Assembly: GCA_964023275.1 (NCBI GenBank)
Contig: OZ029917.1
Coordinates: 31,076,005-31,140,004 of the forward strand
DNA from: Norana najaformis
Taxonomy: Eukaryota; Annelida; Clitellata; Crassiclitellata; Hormogastridae
DNA: 64,000 nucleotides
Direction: 5' to 3'
Every line of letters starts with the position of its first letter. Positions within the stretch are counted from its first letter, which is position 1. Under the pieces are notes generated by a model. It did not search any database, was not told the DNA's origin, and worked only from the letters and a program-made list of their open reading frames with translations. The position numbers were made by a program, and so were the translations under genes. Positions 1,808 to 55,930 of the stretch are shown here, piece by piece.

Positions 1808-2242
1808 TCGAGTTGATTCTTTCTAGGCTGTAATTGTAATTACGTATTTGTATAGCGCCTCTCAAGCGGAAACTCCACAGATGCTTAAAGGGAACACGTC
1901 TCTTGTAATTAGTAACTTCTAATGCGCCGGTGTCTAATGCACACGAAAGACAAACCGCAATCAGGTCAATATTTAGAAGGTCAGTCCAGGAGACAGAGAG
2001 GCAGCGAGAGGCAGCGAGAGGCAGCGAGAGGCAGCGAGAGGCAGCGAGAGGCAGCGAGAGGCAGCGAGAGGCAGCGAGAGGCAGCGAGAGGCAGCCAGGA
2101 GACAGAGAGGTAGCGAGAGGCAGCGAGAGGCAGCGAGAGGCAGCGTATGGCGGATAAGCAATTTGAAAAGGCAAGTCTTAAGCTGAGAACGAAATGACAG
2201 AAGCAACTGAGCAGAAAGAACAGACACAGAGAACGAGTTCAA
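1808..2242 (-). mobile_element. LINE 3' end (CR1/L2-type), minisatellite-expanded
   Basis: The minus strand reads LLSFRSQLKTCLFKLLIRH, the typical C-terminal end of a CR1/L2-type reverse transcriptase protein. A 3' untranslated tail follows and ends in AT-rich GTAATTGTAATTA-like units after a GGCGCTATACAAATA motif. The same tail occurs at 9.2-9.4 kb (+), 42.1-42.3 kb (-) and in the 50.9 kb satellite. In this copy the short segment just after the ORF end is tandemly expanded (separate entry). It is a 5'-truncated dead copy. Confidence 0.65.
1995..2147. repeat. 10-bp minisatellite GGCAGCGAGA inside LINE tail
   Basis: About ten near-perfect 10-bp units run to about 2095. A CCAGGAGACAGAGAG segment is then repeated and a second block of about four units follows to 2147, so the array was itself partly duplicated. 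The unexpanded LINE copy at about 42256 has a single GACAGAGAGGCAGCCTATGG at the matching place. The ORFs crossing it are artefacts of the repeat. Confidence 0.85.
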
Positions 2243-9039: not shown

Positions 9040-9480
9040 CATTATTCTGCAAGGTCATATGATTGTCTTTCTCTGGTCATACCTTGGACTAGAACTGTTC
9101 TGGGTAAACGGGCTTTTTTGGTTGTTGGACCTAAATTTTAGAATTTCCTCTCTGTGTCTGCTCGTTCTGCTCAGTCACTTTTGTCATTTTGTTCTCAACT
9201 TAAAACTTACCTGTTTCAAATTGCTTATCCACCATAGGCTGCCTCTCTGTCATGTGGACTGACCTTCTGGATATTGACCTGACTGCGGCTTGGCTTTGGT
9301 GCGCCATCGGTTGATAGCTTGTGCATTAGACACCGGCCCATTAGAAGTTTCTTCTTATTTTTATTATTGTTATGGTCGTTGTGGTTGTTTTGTTGTAGTT
9401 GTTATTGTAGTTGTTATTATTATTATTATTATTTATATTATTACTACTATCACTATTATTATTATTATTATGGTGTTACA
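9040..9480 (+). mobile_element. LINE 3' end nested in Harbinger element
   Basis: Plus-strand frames read TRTVLGKRAFLVVGPKFWNF, then SVSARSAQSLLSFCSQLKTY and LFQIAYPP, the standard C-terminus of a CR1/L2-type LINE protein. The tail GACCTTCTGGATATTGACCT and GTGCATTAGACACCGGCCC follows, then a TTA/TTG-rich tract to about 9470. This copy is the best reference for the tail that became the 89-bp satellite at 50.9 kb. It lies in the transposase intron on the opposite strand. Confidence 0.75.
9405..9472. repeat. (TTA)n-rich microsatellite
   Basis: Runs of TTA with CTA and TTG interruptions form the 3' tail of the LINE fragment just upstream. Confidence 0.8.
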
Positions 9481-36300: not shown

Positions 36301-39300
36301 CCGAATTTTATTTTGTGCACCTCATACTCGTGACATTTTGACTCATTCCATCTTTGCTCACCCATAACGAGAACAATGCTGTGAATTCTCTGTGACTGGT
36401 CTGGAGTTTAGTTGTCTGCTGCTGTCTCTGTTGTCGCTTTGGTCCAGATGCTAAACTCGCATTGTCCAACTTACTTATTCGCCAGAGTGATCCGGTTGAT
36501 CTCCCTCATCTCTCTCGTCTCATAAAATCTGTCTGAAAGAATTGATTACTATATGCTATAACGTGTTTTTGGCGGCGTCTAATGATAGCTGCGCTGTAGA
36601 AGTCCATATAAGACTTTCTTAAGATTTTGCTGACCATAACAGGCTACAGACGACCAAGTAGAGGCGCAAATATTTGTCTCTGAGCAGATCGAGTACTGGA
36701 ACCGCCATATATCGGCTGCTGGCGGCTGCTATTTCGTTGCTCAGGGGCGGAATGGAAACGGATGGATGATCGAATGGCGCTATTCTGTCCCCTGCGGAGT
36801 CCGCTTCCACCACCTGCTGCTCCAGTTTCCCAGGGGATTTCAGGTTGGAATCCGGAAGAAATGAAGAGACGTGTTTCTCTGGCTTGTGCAGCAGCTGAGT
36901 GTTGGGACTGACTGGAACGCCATTCCATCTGGCTATCTTGTGCAGGAGTTTCTCGGCTTCATCGAATCGTCCAGAAGCAACCAACCAGATCGGAGATTCA
37001 GGCAGAATCCTAACACAGGCCAAACAATGATCATGGGGTAACTATAAGGAATTTCAGTTTTGAAGAGCGGAAATGAAACGAACGAATGAGTTCAATGACT
37101 ACTTTATCGTTGGCACAATCAGACGGCGAGAGAGAAGACTGGTCATGGCCCTCATACGCCAAGGCTAAGAAAATGAAGTCGCTCAGATTTCATATCCATG
37201 GCTGCGTTTCAATGTTACCTTAAGTAACTACTCTTTAGCTACATGATATCACTACTGTAGCATTTGCGATTGTTTAAAACGATTGCGTGTCGGCATTTTC
37301 ATTTCTCTGGTTTACGGCAACATCACCGGCTCCAAACACTGGTTCTCGTCCGATCACCGAAGGTAGTCCACGTCGATCCAGGTAAATACTTAGGTAGGAG
37401 GAATTCTGCAGGGAATGGCAGTTTCTGTAGGCTTTGCACATTTGATATGTACTTTGAAGGCGATAAATTAATGTCCAGTTATATTCTAAGTCAATTTAAA
37501 TTTCTTATATAATTCCATTTCACTCATTATCAATATATTTCATGCTTTGAAGCACAAAACATAGAATTTAGTCAAGGCGTACCAGAAGTAAATGATCCAG
37601 ATAGCCGAAGACAAGGATATGACGATCTGTAGTGTGCGCCAGTCAGCGATGTAGTAGGCGAGTAGGGGAAGGGTAAGGTAGCAGAATATCCATTGGAACT
37701 CAAGACCAATTCCCGCAAAAGCTCTTCTTTTGGAGTCGAAGAGCTCCATACATTCGGTCAGACCAGAGTTAAGGTTTGCCTGCAATTGTAATAACATAAG
37801 GCAAACTGAAATGTCACACAACAGGAATTGTTGTTCACTGGTGACTTGTAATATTATGGTACCACGGGGCAAAGAAAACTGATTATTTCTGGGAACTCTC
37901 ACGAATCCATTTGCAAAATTATAATCAACACAAAATCCAGTTTCTAATTTAACCTCCTGAGACCCAGCGTCCAAAAATTGGGACATGGTTCCTATGCCCA
38001 TTATTTCAAAAATAATTTTCATAGAGCTTACGTCCCGATGTCCACGTAGTTGGACATAGATTGTACTACATTCAGCGCTTTAGAAATTTTTAATTTTGTC
38101 ATTCTGTGTTTCAAGACGGCAGCTTTGAATACAAGGTTTTTCTACCAAAAACGTCCGGGTAAGAAATAATGTAACCTGTGCAAAATGTGGAACTTTTTCA
38201 TGTAAAAAAAGGTGAAATATTACTTAACATCAACTGGTGCTTCGTTTGATGCGTTAAATGCATCACCCTATAACGTTGAATTTAGAGATAATACTTGATT
38301 TTCGGCATGTCCAAAAGTTTGGACAGTGGATAATTCGCGTTGTATAAATTATACCAATGACTACAAAATGATGTAAGTTTATCGTATTAGGGTAAATGTA
38401 GTGTTAATATATTTGTAGCGAAGCTACTAACACCAGCTGCCTTGGTGTCTACACCAGCTGCCTTGCTGTCTACACCAGCTGCCTCGGCGTCAACACCAGC
38501 TGCCTCGGTGTCAACACCAGCTGCCTCGGTGTCTACACCAGTTGCCTCGGTGTCAACAACAGCTGCCTCGGTGTCTACAATAGCTGACGGGGTGACATCA
38601 GCCATTGCCAGTGTGCAATCTTTATTCTCAGACAGTGATGCTGTGTCATCTAAGATGGGTAAGAATAGAAAGAAAGTTGTTGATCCATGGAATGCTACGC
38701 CTTTCATGGTTGCTATGAAGAAGCGACTGGACAAAAAAACAAAAGAAACAAAATTTTTCGATGGTAATCACTCAGAGTTATCCGACTTGTCGGATGCAGA
38801 TGATGAAACATACTTGAATGAACCAGACGTCAATGAATCTGGCTCTCCGACTACATCAGATTCACACGAGAGTTCGGATGATGACGATGAAGATGTTGAC
38901 AACATTCTTGAGCTTCCTGCTAAGAAAAATGTTAGACCATTAACATGGAAAGTACAGGATTCATTTGAACCAGGTCTTACCGATTTCCAACCATGTGACG
39001 ATACAACCGACGAGCGGGCTGACTGGGGTACTGCTGAATATTTCTCGAAATATGTTGACCTGGAATTATTTAAACAGTTTTCGCTTGCAACTAACAAAAA
39101 TTGTACGCTGTTAACCGGGAAGAGTTTGGATACCACGCCTGAAGAGATAACGATTTTCTTTGGTATCAACCTGATGATGTCATGCCTTGGTTATCCGTCT
39201 ATGCATATGTATTGGAATAGATCTGTTAGAGTTGGAAGAATAGCGGAAACTATGAGTAGAAACCATTTCTTCAAAATTCGATCATTCCTTAAGGTAGTCA

Positions 39301-42300
39301 TTGATGCAGATATTTCTGAAGCAGAAAAGAGGGATAACCAGTTTTGGAAAATTCAACCAGTTGTTGACCGTATTCGCCAAGGCTGCCTTCAGCAACAAAG
39401 AGGAAATAAGGTTGCCATCGACGAGCAAATGATACCATTCAGTGCAGCATGCCCATTCAGGCAGTATATTCCCTCTAAACCAAATCCTGTTGGAATTAAA
39501 AACTTTGTTTTAGCCAATCCAGATGGTTTAGTCCTTGATTTTGTTCTATATAAAGGAATTAAATCATTTCATCCTGTTGCGGCAGAACCCAAACTCGGTG
39601 TTGGTGCATTAGTGATTGCACATTTGTCTGAAACTTTACCAAAAGGAACAAGATTTATTGTGACCGATTCTTCACTGGTATACCTCTCATTGAGTACATT
39701 TTGACGAAAGAAATCTATTTAACTGGCACTATGATGAGAAATCGTATCCCTAAGGAAGCGTCAGCCAAAATGAACGAGAAACAACTGGCTAAACGTGGTA
39801 GAGGTTCATCACAGATGACAGTGAGACAAGATAAGAAAGTGTGCATTGTTAAGTGGTTCGATAACAAAGCAATAACCTTAGGGTCTTCCTCACATTCCAT
39901 TCAACCGGAAGATACCTGTAGACGTTGGGATAAGAAACAGAAAAAATACATTTCTTTTACGAGACCAGACATATTTAATCAGTACAATGCAAATGCAAAT
40001 ATGGGTGGAGTCGATCTAATGGACAGGATGATAAGTTATTACAGAATTTATGCCAGAACCAAGAAATGGACTGTGAGATGCTTCATGCACTTCATGGATT
40101 TGGCGGTGACTAATTCGTGGATATCTTATCGCCATGACAAGTTTCGGTTGAATTTTGCAAGAAAGGATATCATGAAATACATGGAATTTCACTTGGACCT
40201 GGCAGAGAAATTCATCAGTGTTACAGAAGATGACGATGACAATAAAAGCGGCGAAGATGCACCACCAGCTGCCAAGCATCGATACATCCCAGTACCATCT
40301 ATTCATCTCAGATTGTCTAGAGCCAAACACATGCCTGAGGTTGCAAAAATAAAATCTGCAATGTGTTGTAGACGTCCAGGTTGTAAAGGGAAATCGATGA
40401 TTCGATGCAAGACCTGCAACATTTTCCTCTGCCTCACTGGAAATAGAAACTGTTTTGCTAAATTCACGAACAGTAAAATTTGAGGGACACTGAAATACTT
40501 ATTCCTATGGAACTTTATTAGCTGGAAAAATTAAATTGCTTGTGGATGTCCAAAATATTGGACAACCTTTTTCTGATTTGGTACTGTCCCATTGTCAAAT
40601 TACTTGGACATGAAGCCCATGTCCAATTTCTTGGACATTAGCAGTCATGACCCATTGCACAAATTTTAGGACATACCAATTTTTACTGAAAACGTTCAAT
40701 GGTGTTTCTGAAACTTTTCTTGCATGTATCTCAGTTACATTTCAGCAGGGTAATGCTAATTTAATGTAATTGTAATCTGACATTTATAAAGCGCCACTTC
40801 AAGAATAGACTCATCAGAGGCGTTCCCGACCCTAATGGCTCTAGTTAAAATATTAATTTATAGCAGCTTATTTACAAAGACTCATTTCTTGATCAAAATC
40901 AACAAAGACTGTCATGAAGTCATACAGAAAAGGTTCATCAAACAAACTCTCACAAGCACAGAGCACAGTCATACGGACATTGTTGAAGACTCGAGATTTC
41001 GGCGTTTTTCCAGCTCCACCAGTGGAATGAACCACTCCAAAGGGACCTGACTCGGTAGGGATTCCATTCGCAGCCGCCACAGGCGAAGACAAGTTGGAAT
41101 ATGATTCCGAGTCTTTTGTCAACCAGTCCACCAGTTCCGATTCAACTCGAATCCACCAGGAAACACGAAGACTAAGAAAGTTAAACGCTTCGCCACTTCT
41201 CCAGCTTCCTCCTCATCAGTTACAGCCTCACTTCTCCAATCTGTCCAACCGAAACCTCCTTCGAATTTCCCGAATTCTTCTTCAATTCGCTCTGCCGCGT
41301 AGCGACCAACTTCAGACCCTTCTCGTTCACAGCCCATCCCTAGCTTACAGCCAGCCAGGTCAAATATGCCACGCACCAGGTAAGGTCTCAAACTATAGCG
41401 CATTTTGTGACAAGTTGCTTTGACTTTGTGTAACGTGCTTCAAACTTTCGTTGCAGGCACGGAGAGGTTAATTATCAGCCGAGTTCATGTGTTTATCTGT
41501 CATATTTACTAATACACTGTCACACCTTATTTCTGACGATGTCTTACATTACATACCTTAATTCGCTAAAACTAATGTACGATGCCCTAGTTCAGTTACC
41601 TTCACCGAACATATTTTTATTGGTATGTTTTAACTGTAAAAATATGCACACACATGTTATCTCGCGTGTCTATTAAACGCATTGGCTTACGACACTGATC
41701 ATGCCGAGTATTGTTCGCAGGATGATGAACGTCATGAAGCTGTTGGAGAAGGCGGTGCCTATTCCGACAACGCAGAGCATCAGATGCGAAATGATGTGCA
41801 CCAGCTTCCGACCGTATCGATCAATAAGGTAAGAGAAGACGACCTCTGCTATGAGGCAGCCCAAGTGGAAGGCCGTCTGCGACATCTCCGACAGGTAGTT
41901 GTGTTGGCAGACGAGATCCCACTTTACACCGAATACAAAGACAGATTCATTTTAGACGCAATTCTACGTCAATCACCGAACTGCAATCAATTTACTGCAC
42001 GAATATGATACATCCTATAAATTTTATCTAAAAAGTGTTTCAGACCTTACTGAGGCGATGGCTTGGTTTGATTAATATTTGCATCAGGACGGGGAGGGAG
42101 GACCATGGAGGTGATAGAGTTGAATGCATCGACCGTCAGCACTGTCTCCTAATCGTAATTAGTAACTTCTAATGCGCCGGTGTCAAATGCACAAAGCATC
42201 AATTGATGGCACACCAAAGCCAAGCCGCAATCAGGTCAATATTCAGTAGGTCAGTTCAGAGGACAGAGAGGCAGCCTATGGTGGATAAGCGTCTCCTAAG

Positions 42301-47400: not shown

Positions 47401-50117
47401 ATAACGACTTAATTATCTTAAATGGAATTACTAAAATGATTGATTAAACTAAACAAACTACTATAACGAGACAGGTAACTTGAAATGTCAAGGTATCATA
47501 TAATGCCTATAAAATTACATAATTATACATGAGACCTTTACATAGACTTGTGATCTGTCCACTACAAAAAGAGATCAGCTGCGAATATTTATATGAAAGA
47601 AAGAACATTTGCAATGAAGCTTCCAGAGTTTCCGAGGGTTAGTGTATACTGCTATGAGCGCCGTAAAAAGGCATAGCAAAATCAAGCGCTGAGATTAGCT
47701 TTTATCACCGATGGAGAAGGATATGGATACTGACTCTATCTCCAAACTTATCCTTTTTCTCTACGACACAGCGCAAAGGGAGATAATATAAGTAGTAGGC
47801 TACACAAGTGTCACGTCAATTAACCTTTACACAATTTAAGAAAAGTACATATTGCACTCGCGTAGACTGTAACATTAAATGGAATCAGACTGACCTTCTG
47901 ACATCACGAGGCTGACTTGGGACGGACGTCAGTTCGTTATGTGACTAGTGAACTTCTGGTGGTCGATACATAGCATGCTTAACTGGATCTACCGCTAAAG
48001 TACTGCCTTCTAATTTACGATTATGCAATATATAATAATCAAAGACAGGCTTACATGCACGCACGCAGTTGTTCGCGTCGTTACATAGGCTTTGATAGGT
48101 CCATAATGATGTCCATTGCAGCAAACAGTTTTACAGTTTTATATAGCTATATGCGAGACCTTGATATCTATATATCTTCTTCTATATAGGCCTATAAATA
48201 TAAATACGTCTATTGCCGCATACAGTTTTATATCTCTGTATGTGAGACCTTGTATAATATATTTTTTCTTCTATACAGGCCTATATATATTGCCGCATAC
48301 AGTTTCATCTGACTGTACGCGAATGTGAGGCTAATGAATATAGCGCGCTATCGCGGCGCCGAGTAGGTCTGAACTTAGCCCTGAAGTACTGAGGATCAGA
48401 GTTAATGTTTGCTTGTTAATCTTAGCGGCACAAAGTGCAGCAAGACGCAGTTCTGAGTGACTAGTGAAGACATAATAAATTCTCACAGAATATGCATGAG
48501 CCGGGGCTTTGTAGTGGTGATCTACGTTTAAGAGCAGCCATTTGGGACCGTTGCACAATGTCTATCGATGTATGTTGAAATACATAATACATGGAAGAGA
48601 CGCGTAAATCCTCACGGCGTGCGAATGGAGAAGGAGGAGCAGTAGGAGGAGGAGGAGGATGATCTGCTCCGTTCATCCATCCTCTGGATGTTCAAAAAGT
48701 TCGGCTGATTATCGTGGTTTCCGTGGCCTTAATGAAGTGACAGATGATCCATAGATCAGGAAATGCGAAGACGTACGAAGATAGGCACCAACTCCATTAG
48801 ACATTTAAACTTCTTTCCCATTTCCAGATTCCTTCTTTCGCTTTTCTTTTCCTTCTCTCCTTATTACGCACGCATCCTAAACACGTCTGTACATATATAA
48901 CATTAGAAGTACTATAGTGTTGTACTCAAAGTGTATATATACATAGAGAGTTGGATTTGATGGGGGTTGGGGTTTGGGGTGGTTCTATTCCACCTCAGGC
49001 CGACAGTTAACTGTGATGTAAATAATGGCCCTTGGGTCGGTTTTAACATCTTCCCGGTAAGCCTTCGGCGAAGTGCAGTCCCATTAACTATACTCACGTC
49101 CACATTCTAGATTGAATAATGCATCGCCTAGCTCAAACGAAGTTTCACGTGTCTTACTGGAGACAATCAAAGACTTTTCTCAGTTTTTGTTTTGTTTTGT
49201 TAAGCTCAGTTTGAGCAGCTTGCAGTTTATGCTGCAGTCAGTCTGCAGTCCTCTCTGTTCACAAACTCTCCATTGCTTCGTCTGCGGACAAGAGTTGTCT
49301 GCAGGCCTGAATTTGTCGAGTGTCTTCGGAATGTTCAACTTTTCAGTCAAAAGTCGAGATTCCAGTCTAAATGAAAAAGATCAGGCCTGGGTGTCGGCTT
49401 AACCTTCTGGCAACTCCCTATAGTTCACCCAAAAGTTGGCTTTAAAAGTCAGATTTCAATAATTTTTAAAAATAATTTTTAAATGCTAATCTCTAATAGG
49501 CCTAACCTCTATTTCCATAACACAATTTACACTTTAAAAGTTGAATTGACAGTAGATATGTCACCCAACTGAGGCAGGGACTGTGCCGACAGTCAAAGAA
49601 ACTAGTCTTGATAAAAAGTTTGGCCGGAGATGTCGGAAACCTCCATTCGCTTTTGCATAATTACCCTCTAAAATTCAGACATCTAATAGAAATTAGATGG
49701 TCTCCGACCTTCCGAAATGAGGATGGACATATACGGATACGGAATAGAAATTTAGGAAGGACTTTGTCTAAAATCGTTGGTAGGATGGGCTGCGTCCTCG
49801 TAGTTTGGAGCAATTGGATGATCCTATCTTGTTCTGCTGTCAACTATGTTTCCCTTCAACTTGTACACAGCTTAAGGTGTCAGTATATAAGGCACGGATG
49901 AGTTCGATAATCTTATTGAGAAGAACTGTTACGAAGGCATCCAATTCCACTGCAACCCAAAACAAAATAAAACCAACACATAGTGATTTTTTCTTAATAG
50001 GTTTATTTTAACTTTATGACTTTAATGGCAACTTTCCGCTTACATTTATTTAGTAGCCTATAATGTCATTCGCCTTCAGCGCCACTGTCTGACCACGTAC
50101 AGCAGGGCGAACATGTT
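47400..50117. other. gene-free stretch
   Basis: No gene recognised. Frames at 49112-49402 and 49608-49901 have no motif. GCAAAGGGAGATAATA at 47770 resembles the SINE motif at 14.0 kb. A diverged tandem repeat is listed separately. Confidence 0.4.
48112..48330. repeat. diverged tandem repeat, about 2.5 copies
   Basis: TTGCAGCAAACAGTTTTACA, TTGCCGCATACAGTTTTATA and TTGCCGCATACAGTTTCATC begin successive copies. Each full copy contains GAGACCTTG and a CTTCTATAYAGGCCTATA motif. Copy lengths are about 95 and 78 bp. Confidence 0.75.
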
Positions 50118-50265
50118 TAAGCCACTGTCATTATGTAGATAATTGCAAAATGTCTAAGCCAATGTCATTATGTAGATAATTGCAAAATGTCTAAGCCATT
50201 GTCATTATGTAGATAATTGCAAAATGTCTAAGCCAATGTCATTATGTAGATAATTGCAAAATGGA
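50118..50265. repeat. 37-bp tandem repeat, 4 copies
   Basis: Four near-identical units with core TAAGCCAATGTCATTATGTA and GATAATTGCAAAATGTC. They differ at one or two positions. Confidence 0.9.
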
Positions 50266-50871
50266 AGCTTTCATTTCAAAATATGCTAAAATGTAAAGAA
50301 TTTCAAGTCAGTTAATAAATTCCATTTCACAAATTTCACCATAAACGCGTCGTTATTAGGCCTATAATTACAGGTTAATTATATTTCCACACGAAAGAAA
50401 CCCCTTTCTTGTTTCATCGATTTGTATTTAGTCTACAGGCAATCTACAGACCAGAACGGCAATTTGCCATGGCAAAATTCTTTTTACCTGGAATGTGGAT
50501 AAAAACTGGTAATAAACTGCAAAAAACTGGGGCAAATGCTAACAGACTGCAATTGTTGGAACCATAACAGGCACATGTGTCTATTTTAATACTAAAAATA
50601 TCCCAACTTTATTTTGACCTAATAATTAATGGATGTGATTGTTTTTAATTGAGTTATTGTTTGTTTTTTTGACTGAATTAGAGAAGTCTGAATTTGTTGT
50701 CATACTCAACTGTTTCAAAGTGCTTCTTTATCAGGCCTATTCTCTTGAACAGGTTTCGTTAAAATTTCCTTGAATTAAGTTGAAAACACAATAAACGCGT
50801 CACCATTGCATTTCTCAATTGTACTTAACTTGTCTGGTTTTATTTGGTCTTTACGTTGTACTGTTCTCAGT

Positions 50872-53185
50872 TCCTGACAACATGCTGTACCACCACAGCA
50901 ATACCTAGAATCCTGACTATGACCTTTTGAATATAAAGCTGATTGCCGCTTGGCTTTAAGTCCTGACAACATGCTGTACCACCACAGCAATACCTAGAAT
51001 CCTGACTATGACCTTTTGAATATAAAGCTGATTGCCGCTTGGCTTTAAGTCCTGACAACATGCTGTACCACCACAGCAATACCTAGAATCCTGACTATGA
51101 CCTTTTGAATATAAAGCTGATTGCCGCTTGGCTTTAAGTCCTGACAACATGCTGTACCACCACAGCAATACCTAGAATCCTGACTATGACCTTTTGAATA
51201 TAAAGCTGATTGCCGCTTGGCTTTAAGTCCTGACAACATGCTGTACCACCACAGCAATACCTAGAATCCTGACTATGACCTTTTGAATATAAAGCTGATT
51301 GCCGCTTGGCTTTAAGTCCTGACAACATGCTGTACCACCACAGCAATACCTAGAATCCTGACTATGACCTTTTGAATATAAAGCTGATTGCCGCTTGGCT
51401 TTAAGTCCTGACAACATGCTGTACCACCACAGCAATACCTAGAATCCTGACTATGACCTTTTGAATATAAAGCTGATTGCCGCTTGGCTTTAAGTCCTGA
51501 CAACATGCTGTACCACCACAGCAATACCTAGAATCCTGACTATGACCTTTTGAATATAAAGCTGATTGCCGCTTGGCTTTAAGTCCTGACAACATGCTGT
51601 ACCACCACAGCAATACCTAGAATCCTGACTATGACCTTTTGAATATAAAGCTGATTGCCGCTTGGCTTTAAGTCCTGACAACATGCTGTACCACCACAGC
51701 AATACCTAGAATCCTGACTATGACCTTTTGAATATAAAGCTGATTGCCGCTTGGCTTTAAGTCCTGACAACATGCTGTACCACCACAGCAATACCTAGAA
51801 TCCTGACTATGACCTTTTGAATATAAAGCTGATTGCCGCTTGGCTTTAAGTCCTGACAACATGCTGTACCACCACAGCAATACCTAGAATCCTGACTATG
51901 ACCTTTTGAATATAAAGCTGATTGCCGCTTGGCTTTAAGTCCTGACAACATGCTGTACCACCACAGCAATACCTAGAATCCTGACTATGACCTTTTGAAT
52001 ATAAAGCTGATTGCCGCTTGGCTTTAAGTCCTGACAACATGCTGTACCACCACAGCAATACCTAGAATCCTGACTATGACCTTTTGAATATAAAGCTGAT
52101 TGCCGCTTGGCTTTAAGTCCTGACAACATGCTGTACCACCACAGCAATACCTAGAATCCTGACTATGACCTTTTGAATATAAAGCTGATTGCCGCTTGGC
52201 TTTAAGTCCTGACAACATGCTGTACCACCACAGCAATACCTAGAATCCTGACTATGACCTTTTGAATATAAAGCTGATTGCCGCTTGGCTTTAAGTCCTG
52301 ACAACATGCTGTACCACCACAGCAATACCTAGAATCCTGACTATGACCTTTTAAATATAAAGCTGATTGCCGCTTGGCTTTAAGTCCTGACAACATGCTG
52401 TACCACCACAGCAATACCTAGAATCCTGACTATGACCTTTTGAATATAAAGCTGATTGCCGCTTGGCTTTAAGTCCTGACAACATGCTGTACCACCACAG
52501 CAATACCTAGAATCCTGACTATGACCTTTTGAATATAAAGCTGATTGCCGCTTGGCTTTAAGTCCTGACAACATGCTGTACCACCACAGCAATACCTAGA
52601 ATCCTGACTATGACCTTTTGAATATAAAGCTGATTGCCGCTTGGCTTTAAGTCCTGACAACATGCTGTACCACCACAGCAATACCTAGAATCCTGACTAT
52701 GACCTTTTGAATATAAAGCTGATTGCCGCTTGGCTTTAAGTCCTGACAACATGCTGTACCACCACAGCAATACCTAGAATCCTGACTATGACCTTTTGAA
52801 TATAAAGCTGATTGCCGCTTGGCTTTAAGTCCTGACAACATGCTGTACCACCACAGCAATACCTAGAATCCTGACTATGACCTTTTGAATATAAAGCTGA
52901 TTGCCGCTTGGCTTTAAGTCCTGACAACATGCTGTACCACCACAGCAATACCTAGAATCCTGACTATGACCTTTTGAATATAAAGCTGATTGCCGCTTGG
53001 CTTTAAGTCCTGACAACATGCTGTACCACCACAGCAATACCTAGAATCCTGACTATGACCTTTTGAATATAAAGCTGATTGCCGCTTGGCTTTAAGTCCT
53101 GACAACATGCTGTACCACCACAGCAATACCTAGAATCCTGACTATGACCTTTTGAATATAAAGCTGATTGCCGCTTGGCTTTAAG
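50872..53185. repeat. 89-bp satellite, exactly 26 copies
   Basis: The 2314-bp block divides exactly into 26 units of 89 bp. I noticed one substitution only (a TTTTAAATA for TTTTGAATA unit near 52353). The unit begins TCCTGACAACATGCTGTACC and ends GCCGCTTGGCTTTAAG. Its GACC..TTGAATATAAAGCTGATTGCCGCTTGGC part aligns with the LINE tail at 9262-9300 (GACCTTCTGGATATTGACCT then GACTGCGGCTTGGCTTTGG). The first half aligns more loosely with the end of the LINE ORF (GCTTATCCACCATAGG). The 70-aa frames on minus arise because 89 is not a multiple of three and each unit carries a stop. Confidence 0.95.
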
Positions 53186-53225
53186 ACGCCAAGGGTTGAT
53201 GCCTTGTGCATTACATACAGGATCG
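53186..53225 (+). mobile_element. remaining LINE tail flanking the satellite
   Basis: Directly after the last unit comes ACGCCAAGGGTTGATGCCTT GTGCATTACATAC. It continues the same LINE tail (GCGCCATCGGTTGATAGCTT, then GTGCATTAGACAC at 9300-9335). The satellite is therefore in place within a LINE 3' end. Confidence 0.6.
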
Positions 53226-53639
53226 ATAGAAGGTACTAACTGAGAATAGTAACTATACAACCCTAAACAGGAAGTGGATTATTCGAACTGTGCATTGAGA
53301 GGACTGAGGTGACTCCATGTACGCGTCACTCATTATTAGTAGCCTACTCATTCATTGGATTCATTACGAAATTACACATTACTAATAAAAGTACTATCAG
53401 TTAATAATAATCTCGTTGCTGCTTATCATGTTATGACTGTCATCAACTTGTCAAGATGTAATTCAAAAGTCTGTCACTTTTACACATTCATCGTTACGTA
53501 TGGATTCTGGATAAGTTCATTCAATCTATCTCATTCCCATGGCAGTACTGCTTTTGAATTCGGTCATACTTTCTGTTGCTATGCAATACGACTAACATTA
53601 TTTTCCGTCCTAGGTTGAATGTAAATCCATGTAAAATAT

Positions 53640-55930
53640 CTTGGATTGTCTATGGATTTGTTTCTGTTGCTTCTTTTGGCTGGTGATGTTAAAATAAATC
53701 CAGGACCAGTAAGACTCAAAGTTTGGTTATTGGACTATTGAACTTTTGTTCTATTCGAAGTAAAACTGAAGTCCTTCATAATTTTCTTTGTGAGAATTCT
53801 TTGCTTATACTTGCTCTTACTGAGACCTATTCAACCTAGTGACACACCTGGATTCATTTCTGACCTTACTTTCTCAACCTTCTCAGTGCTGACTGAGCCT
53901 CGCTGCAGCAGTAAAGGTGGTGGACTCGCCTTTCTTTTCAAGTCAAACCTGGCAACGCACAAATTCATTTTGCCTATTCCTGCACCCGAGTCATTTGAAG
54001 TCCTGGCGGCTACAGCCATTTCTGGCACAACTAACTGATTTTTTAAAATGAATTCCAGTTACTGTTTGAATATTTTAAATAGTTATTATAGTTGATTTTA
54101 ATTTTCATCTTGATGTGGCTGGTCATTGTTCTTCAGCATTTCCTGATATGTTGGAAGAATTTGCAACAACTTGTTACCTTTCCTGCACATAATAAAGGCC
54201 ACACCTGGGATGTTTTGACAACTCGTTCTGATTGGAAATCGCTTCATACTGTCACTCCTGTCGAGTCATATCTTTCAGATCATATTGCAATTTCCTCAAA
54301 GTTTGACTTTCCATTTAAACTGCCCAAAATTATGAAACTGTTAAATTTCATCCTTGACATAAAAATGATTTAAATAAGCAGAAGCATGATATCTTAGCAT
54401 CTCCGTTGTAGTTAACTTCTGCACAAACAGCTAATAAACTAGCTATGCTGTTCCAGTCCACTTTAACTGAGCTTCTTGAAAGGCAAATTCCTTTTAGAAT
54501 AAGCGAGTAGCAGAGCGCACACCATAGCCTTGGTTCAACGCTACCATTTCTTAAGCTAGGCGTCGAAGAAGTCAGTTAGAGCGTTGGTGGCGCCACTCTC
54601 GCCTTCCCTCCAATACACAACAGGTTTAAGCAACAGTGCAAACTTGTATACAAACTTGTTTAACCTGCCAAATGTGGATATATATTTAACAAATGTAATT
54701 GCTGAAAGTTCTGCATCACCAAAAACTTTGTGGATGCCTTTGATTAAGTTATTAGGCAGAGAAATTAAATTTATCCTCTGCTTCGTTCTCTGCTACCCAA
54801 GAGCTAGCCAGTAAATTTTTGACCTGTGGTATAAGGCTGAAAGTTGTTGGTCATTCGATATTGGTAAATGTCTTCATCTTAGTTCTTCACCTCCAGTCTT
54901 AGGCTATTTTCAACCAACAACTCTTCCAGATGTTCGCAGACTCATATTTTCTTCATCTAACAAAAGCTCTCTTCCCACTTCTTTTCTGACAGAATGTTTT
55001 GATGTCCTAGGTCCATTGCTTGAGGGATCCTTCCCATCTGCTTTTGCTTATGCTATAGTTCATCCTCCGCCTGTTCACAATCTTGGCATCATCTCTGACC
55101 CACATCTCTCGTTTTTAGACCACATCACCAGCCTCTCTCGCACTTGGTTCATTCATATTCGTGACCTTCGCCGTATTCATTCCATGCTCGATTTTAAAAC
55201 TGCCTCTGCCATCGCTACCTCCTTTGTCCACTTCAAGTCTGACGACTATAATTCTGTTTTTCTTAACCTTGACTCAAATTAAGCTTTTCAACTTATCCAA
55301 AATTCACTTATCCGAACTGTCACCAAGACATCGAAGCCTGACCATATCACTCCTTAAATTACTCCAATGGTTGAAAATCTCAGAAATTATTCATTTTGAA
55401 GTTTTCTCTCTAACCTGTAACTCTCTACAATACTCCCATCCTACTTTTATTCGCAAACTCTTTACCATCCAATCAGCCCATTCATCCTCTTACCTCACTC
55501 TTGCCCATCCCCCTCTTACTACTCGTCTTAGGTTCTCTAAGCTAATTCATCTACAACACCACAACTCGACTCTGGAACGATCTCCCTTCTGAATTTCACC
55601 CGCCATCATCTGTCTCAAGCCCCCCCCCCCCCATTCTTTAGGCCTACACCTCGGGCATTCCATTCAAAACTGAAGTCTCACCCTGTCAAGAAATCTTACG
55701 CTAATCCATCCAATCCGCAGCCTTCCCATTTCTCTCAACCTAAACACAATCCACCATAAAAACTTCTCCTTCTCTCTGGTCTTCTGGCAACCGGACTTTT
55801 TCTTCCTATGTCATCTTTGGACAATCCCTCTGACTTGACACAGCGCTCGTGAAAAGCTGGTGCCCTACGCTTAACTTTCATGTAACGCTTTAGAAATTCT
55901 CGGGATAACAATTACGATCAGCTGACGTCA
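53640..55930 (+). mobile_element. CR1/L2-type LINE, internally deleted
   Basis: Endonuclease start: LLLLLAGDVKINPGP near 53660, then TPGFISDLTFSTFSVLTEPR and GGGLAFLFKSNLATHKFILP. Endonuclease end: HTWDVLTTRSDWKSLH and YLSDHIAISSKFDF near 54200-54310. After a decayed spacer (54420-54820) the palm motifs are missing, and the sequence resumes with HNLGIISDPHLSFLDHITSL, LRRIHSMLDFKTASAIATSF and LLQWLKISEIIHFEVFSLTC. The tail is GATAACAATTACGAT near 55910. Many stops and frame changes make it non-functional. A poly-C run lies at 55620-55632. Confidence 0.85.

Follow-up and report, generated by a model that had tools for sequence, protein, structure and literature searches.

In the genome of Norana najaformis we observed a near-perfect tandem array of 89-bp units which is probably nascent and would have originated in three steps, namely an old dispersed repeat (here Host-R), a LINE insertion into this repeat and a late expansion of 89 bp in place. 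We assign this reading a probability of roughly 0.82. On the evidence of sequence comparison, the unit begins with about 50 bp of Host-R, ends with about 40 bp of LINE tail and straddles the 5' junction of the nested insertion. All positions refer to the window, i.e. the whole analysed stretch of 64,000 bp (C5:31076005-31140004 of an assembly of 608,420,607 bases in 17 contigs).

The extent of the array was determined with Tandem Repeats Finder and by direct comparison of the units. This analysis revealed exactly 26.0 units of 89 bp between 50872 and 53185, corresponding to 2314 bp, with no partial unit on either side:

50872..53185, plus strand: tandem array, 26.0 x 89 bp, 25 units identical
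52296..52384, plus strand: unit 17, the sole variant unit, G>A at 52353 (unit position 58)

With 25/26 units identical, the between-unit difference amounts to 1 in 2314 bp, as the first-pass annotation had read it (26 units, essentially one substitution). Units 1 and 26 carry the majority sequence. The interval originally proposed ended at 53225; its last 40 bp (53186-53225) are a continuation of the LINE tail and lie outside the array. Each unit contains one CpG, which is intact in 26/26 units, and the observed/expected CpG ratio of the whole window is 0.79.

Extreme unit identity and a whole-number copy count also speak for an assembly artefact, in which a short duplication or a single copy was blown up to 26 units. 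Such an artefact is unlikely, since one unit carries a distinct variant, the assembly is of chromosome scale (17 contigs for 608 Mb) and typical long reads exceed the 2.3 kb of the array. The assembly would nevertheless be the sole basis for the copy number and even for the expansion itself, and the sequence as assembled likewise underlies the conclusions that the array is recent, arose in place and occupies a single locus.

Folded as DNA, the plus strand of the unit ranked modestly above its shuffles (z -2.07, 4/200) and the minus strand gave z -1.54 (16/200 shuffles). This excess is too weak as a basis for hairpin-driven slippage. An Rfam scan of 50200-54000 yielded 0 matches up to E = 1, and a retrozyme, a hammerhead-type satellite or another known RNA was rejected for this region on that ground. 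In viral contigs, one 22-mer query found nothing related to the array. A separate minisatellite (37 bp x 4.1, 96% matches) is located at 50113-50263, 600 bp upstream of the array.

Three LINE-tail copies present in the window served for comparison with the second half of the unit:

50920..50960, plus strand: LINE-tail-derived half of the monomer (first unit, positions ~49-89), present in each unit
53186..53251, plus strand: remainder of the LINE-tail fragment, single copy, running on from the last unit
9260..9347, plus strand: LINE-tail comparison copy
42159..42253, minus strand: LINE-tail comparison copy; its fragment is flanked by a perfect 9-bp direct repeat (42299-42291 / 42152-42144)
1909..1983, minus strand: LINE-tail comparison copy, degraded

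Unit positions 49-86 are 81.6% identical over 38 bp to 9260-9297 (plus strand), while the second half of the unit shares 84.2% identity with 42253-42216 and 78.9% with 1983-1946 (both minus strand). Past the last unit the tail continues without gaps against the 9-kb and 42-kb copies, where the match reaches 53232 and 53239, respectively; the 2-kb copy shows deletions. The alignment of unit plus tail scored above 500/500 dinucleotide shuffles with each of the three copies and under both scorings. At the array locus the LINE fragment measures about 105 bp, is 5'-truncated and shares its 3' end with the family.

A genome search for the tail family gave 4483 candidate places at first look, 40 of which were scored. 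Of 112 candidates for relatives of the array's own tail, 40 were scored, and the two with the highest scores were 79% and 80% identical. The family may be of the CR1/L2 type. Variable 5' truncation together with the 9-bp direct repeat of the 42-kb copy points to LINE-like behaviour. One coding fragment of the family (109 aa) was scanned against Pfam without a match. When 30 loci of high identity were examined over their first 1760 bases, as far as the tail, the longest forward frame measured 77-130 aa in all 30, and because these frames are short the copies may be non-autonomous.

Two further loci of the tail family contain repeated DNA. A minisatellite of 15 units of 10 bp (1996-2145, minus strand) lies within another tail copy, a position with a chance of 0.0075 under random placement in a post hoc test. 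A 30-mer of this minisatellite occurs in the assembly at its own locus only. The reading of the tail as a hotspot for tandem repeats was set aside. At G000:C3:20507357-20518156 tail copies (L048, L049, L050, L057) recur at intervals of ~3.5 kb. Between L049 and L050 no difference was seen along 3261 bp (100% identity), which suggests that a larger segment was recently duplicated in tandem.

The first half of the unit behaved differently from the second. When its 48 bp were aligned to the 9-kb, 42-kb and 2-kb tails, the score was reached by 53, 382 and 418 of 500 shuffles under 1/-1 scoring and by 169, 448 and 330 of 500 under 2/-3 scoring. An anchored test of the first half gave 106/1000 and 560/1000 shuffles as good. 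Summed over 30 LINE loci, the first 48 bp were equalled by 28/300 shuffles; over the 18 of these 30 loci that contain the search motif, the others, reverse-oriented ones included, being left out, the first 50 bp were equalled by 26/300. The LINE match of the first 48 bp is no better than chance.

The same boundary appeared when the array locus was set against the majority sequence of 15 LINE copies (two from the window, eight of 39 tail-search hits outside the array and five of 30 family loci). Over unit positions 1-48 the array locus agreed at 21/49 positions and the individual copies at 38-47 of 48-49. Agreement at the array locus was 32/41 for positions 49-89 (copies 36-41) and 41/52 for 53186-53237 (copies 44-50). 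The LINE homology therefore stops abruptly near unit position 48. The left flank was rejected as LINE sequence, 319-479 of 500 shuffles being equally good at all seven flank lengths; of two control stretches in this test, one (53401-53560) gave 14/500 against the 2-kb copy, and this control overlaps the right end of Host-R.

Host-R occupies both sides of the array:

50447..50871, plus strand: left part of Host-R, running without a break into the first unit; approximate at its outer end
50872..50921, plus strand: positions 1 to ~50 of the first unit, the monomer half derived from Host-R, present in every unit; junction ambiguous by ~2-4 bp
53252..53453, plus strand: right part of Host-R, resuming past the LINE fragment; outer end approximate

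The left flank together with the unit start was used as the query against the genome. Host-R was found at 17 places beyond the window with 67-89% identity. Fifteen of these were fetched, 13 were aligned (without L040 and L041) and eight were used for the join scan described below; L032 and L035, with inserts of their own, and L031, L039 and L043, for which BLAST supported the left part only, were left out of it. Both array flanks are present in 10/15 fetched loci according to BLAST, and the copies are ~62-86% identical to these flanks. Most copies with a right part end at 53451-53478. At the point of the LINE fragment 11/13 aligned loci show no insert, a count that includes the three loci whose right part BLAST does not support. 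L032 (G000:C5:37325000-37328000) carries its own tandem array of ~31 bp x 4.1 over this point, and L035 (G000:C11:9827400-9830400) contains an insert of ~374 bp very close to it, presumably resembling a different LINE tail. These two of 13 aligned copies led us to consider the point a hotspot at which breaks or insertions recur and start tandem repeats, a reading we regard as rather doubtful.

For the join scan, pieces of the array locus were joined and scored against the eight Host-R copies, with the right end moved in 2-bp steps. The best joins combined 50 bp of the unit with 53252 and 52 bp with 53254, both with a total of 560.5, compared with 502.0 when no unit and 468.0 when the whole unit was kept. 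After shuffling of the kept 52 bp, 0/300 sequences reached 560.5 (maximum 529). Taken separately, 5/8 copies preferred 48-53 bp of the unit and 3/8 preferred 13-26 bp. The first 50 bp alone scored clearly above shuffles in 5/13 copies (at most 14/500 as good) and were equalled by 49-486 of 500 shuffles in the other 8/13; single copies are too diverged to show the composite unit one by one in every case. The sum over the copies was reached by 1/500 shuffles. By these alignments the 89-bp monomer is a composite of more than one element. A SINE head was rejected as the source of its first half, which runs on into Host-R.

According to the first-pass annotation the whole monomer was a recently amplified LINE 3' tail. 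Its statements that the second half follows the tail and that the sequence adjoining the last unit continues it agree with our alignments, as does the recency of the amplification. The expected alignment of the monomer to the tails above shuffled sequence was obtained for unit plus tail and failed for the first 48 bp. An entirely LINE-derived monomer could draw on the match of unit 49-89 and flank and on a weak alignment of the first half that requires gaps and is strongest with the 9-kb copy. We judge it quite improbable, since that half fares no better than shuffles against the tails, agrees at 21/49 positions where the 15 LINE copies reach 38-47 of 48-49, and fits Host-R.

An imperfect repeat (13/18) connects unit positions 32-49 with 53239-53256. 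It was equalled or exceeded by 79/2000 shuffles and by 62/2000 random draws (draws that overlapped the array were discarded, and no others were made in their place). This repeat is a possible decayed target-site duplication, and the best Host-R join does not need it.

Directly downstream of the array, 53600-55800 contains what we take to be degraded LINE-like coding remnants, and the stretch after the right end of Host-R (~53453) is presumably also degraded, resembling a different LINE. The sequence GDVKINPGP near the start of 53600-55800 resembles, in our assumption, a 2A-like motif. The pieces of this region that were tested gave no Pfam match above the cut-off. Elsewhere in the window, transposase pieces (Pfam DDE_Tnp_1_7) extend across two frames at 38442-40483 on the plus strand; we assume them to be piggyBac-like.

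The distribution of the array was investigated with its 22-bp head-to-tail junction. Allowing up to 2 mismatches, this junction was found 25 times across the 608 Mb of the assembly, 25/25 within the array, and a reversed control occurs 0 times. Queries of 201 bp and 204 bp likewise detected full-length units in the assembled genome at the array locus only. The count covers assembled DNA only, and the lack of a match by a search tool does not prove rarity. A genome search for the repeat had been suggested at the outset and is answered by these results; the designation as a satellite has to be dropped, since there is no family and the junction is confined in the assembly to the array locus. A satellite in the strict sense is abundant, long or multi-locus, and here all junctions lie in one 2.3-kb array. 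The unit is arranged head to tail and has homology to dispersed elements, as in a TE-derived tandem repeat. Within the assembly, the array is a nascent, single-locus, TE-derived tandem repeat and not a dispersed satellite.

Dispersed satellite-like arrays borne by Helentrons have been reported from the Pacific oyster (PMC7492417). A similar origin of our array, as a member of a dispersed or mobile family borne by a Helentron or MITE or as the product of a re-inserted circle, is very improbable, because the junction has no second locus in the 608-Mb assembly and the flanks have kept the arrangement of the locus before the array. As to the extrachromosomal circle considered by the first-pass annotation, re-insertion of its product elsewhere is likewise not needed, as the left and the right flank are collinear with the locus before amplification.

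The order of events was deduced from sequence divergence. The units differ by 0.04% (about 0.001-0.24%, Poisson interval for one event, calculated by hand), whereas the LINE copy is 21-22% diverged. Provided that the assembly is right, the amplification would therefore be far younger than the LINE insertion. The LINE divergence is equal inside and outside the array, which indicates that the old copy at this locus was the template. Formation of the array during retrotransposition, by a reverse transcriptase slipping on LINE RNA, would account for the direct involvement of the LINE fragment and is hardly credible in view of the ~50 bp of pre-insertion target DNA in each unit, which is not expected in LINE RNA, and of the divergence of 21-22% for the LINE copy versus 0.04% for the units.

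We thus favour the three-step origin. In the first step an old dispersed Host-R copy stood at the locus, as its left and right parts on both sides of the array demonstrate. In the second step a ~105-bp 5'-truncated LINE-like tail entered Host-R; the fragment-free copies show this insertion, whose precise mechanism is inferred. Long after, 89 bp across the 5' junction of the nested insertion would have been duplicated and rapidly brought to 26 copies in place. The first duplication may have been a break-and-join or template-switch event without microhomology, whichever repair pathway was used. Growth would then have proceeded by unequal sister exchange or by replication slippage between the 89-bp copies, two routes between which the sequence does not discriminate. 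Growth in place is favoured by the whole-number copy count and by flanks that remain collinear with the locus as it was before the array. Majority-sequence units at both ends and a whole-number count are also expected for one recent expansion from a microhomology-free joint. A function of the array is neither needed for this origin nor indicated.

Comparable systems have been described before. In reviews, the 3' regions or other portions of LINEs are listed as sources of satellites (PMC9659126, PMC6947457). The chicken HinfI satellite derives from the CR1 3' UTR and part of ORF2, and the common cetacean satellite from the L1 3' UTR (PMC9659126). Both share with our array a LINE 3' region in the tandem unit; they are named satellite families, whereas here a single 2.3-kb array has a unit that is about half non-LINE. 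PcH-Sat of the limpet Patella, derived from Nin-SINE, also contains a retroelement piece (118 bp) in its monomer (PMC11121367). Its monomer of 179 bp makes up ~10% of the P. caerulea genome with 91.6-99.8% identity, in contrast to the one locus reported here. For maize CRM1TR and CRM4TR, illegitimate recombination, possibly at nested insertions, was proposed (PMC3648361). These arrays are retrotransposon-derived as well and, according to that source, lack short direct repeats for the single step; they stem from LTR retrotransposons in or near centromeres, and our array from a LINE-like tail nested within a different dispersed repeat. Composite monomers have further been proposed to arise from "TE graveyards" (PMC12628747). 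Like the present unit they join pieces of different transposable elements from one locus, but their origin is debated, whereas here one locus holds near-identical units with both progenitor flanks intact. The origin of composite satellite monomers is an open question in that 2025 review (PMC12628747).

TE-derived satellites are well known, and the array is a clear, not an unprecedented, example with intact progenitor flanks; we make no claim that it is the first published single-locus array to straddle a junction. It is one locus with no sign of function. Its value lies in the combination of fragment-free copies, the nested junction and a near-perfect array in one genome, which makes the order of events visible, and the expansion of the array could be tested in living populations.
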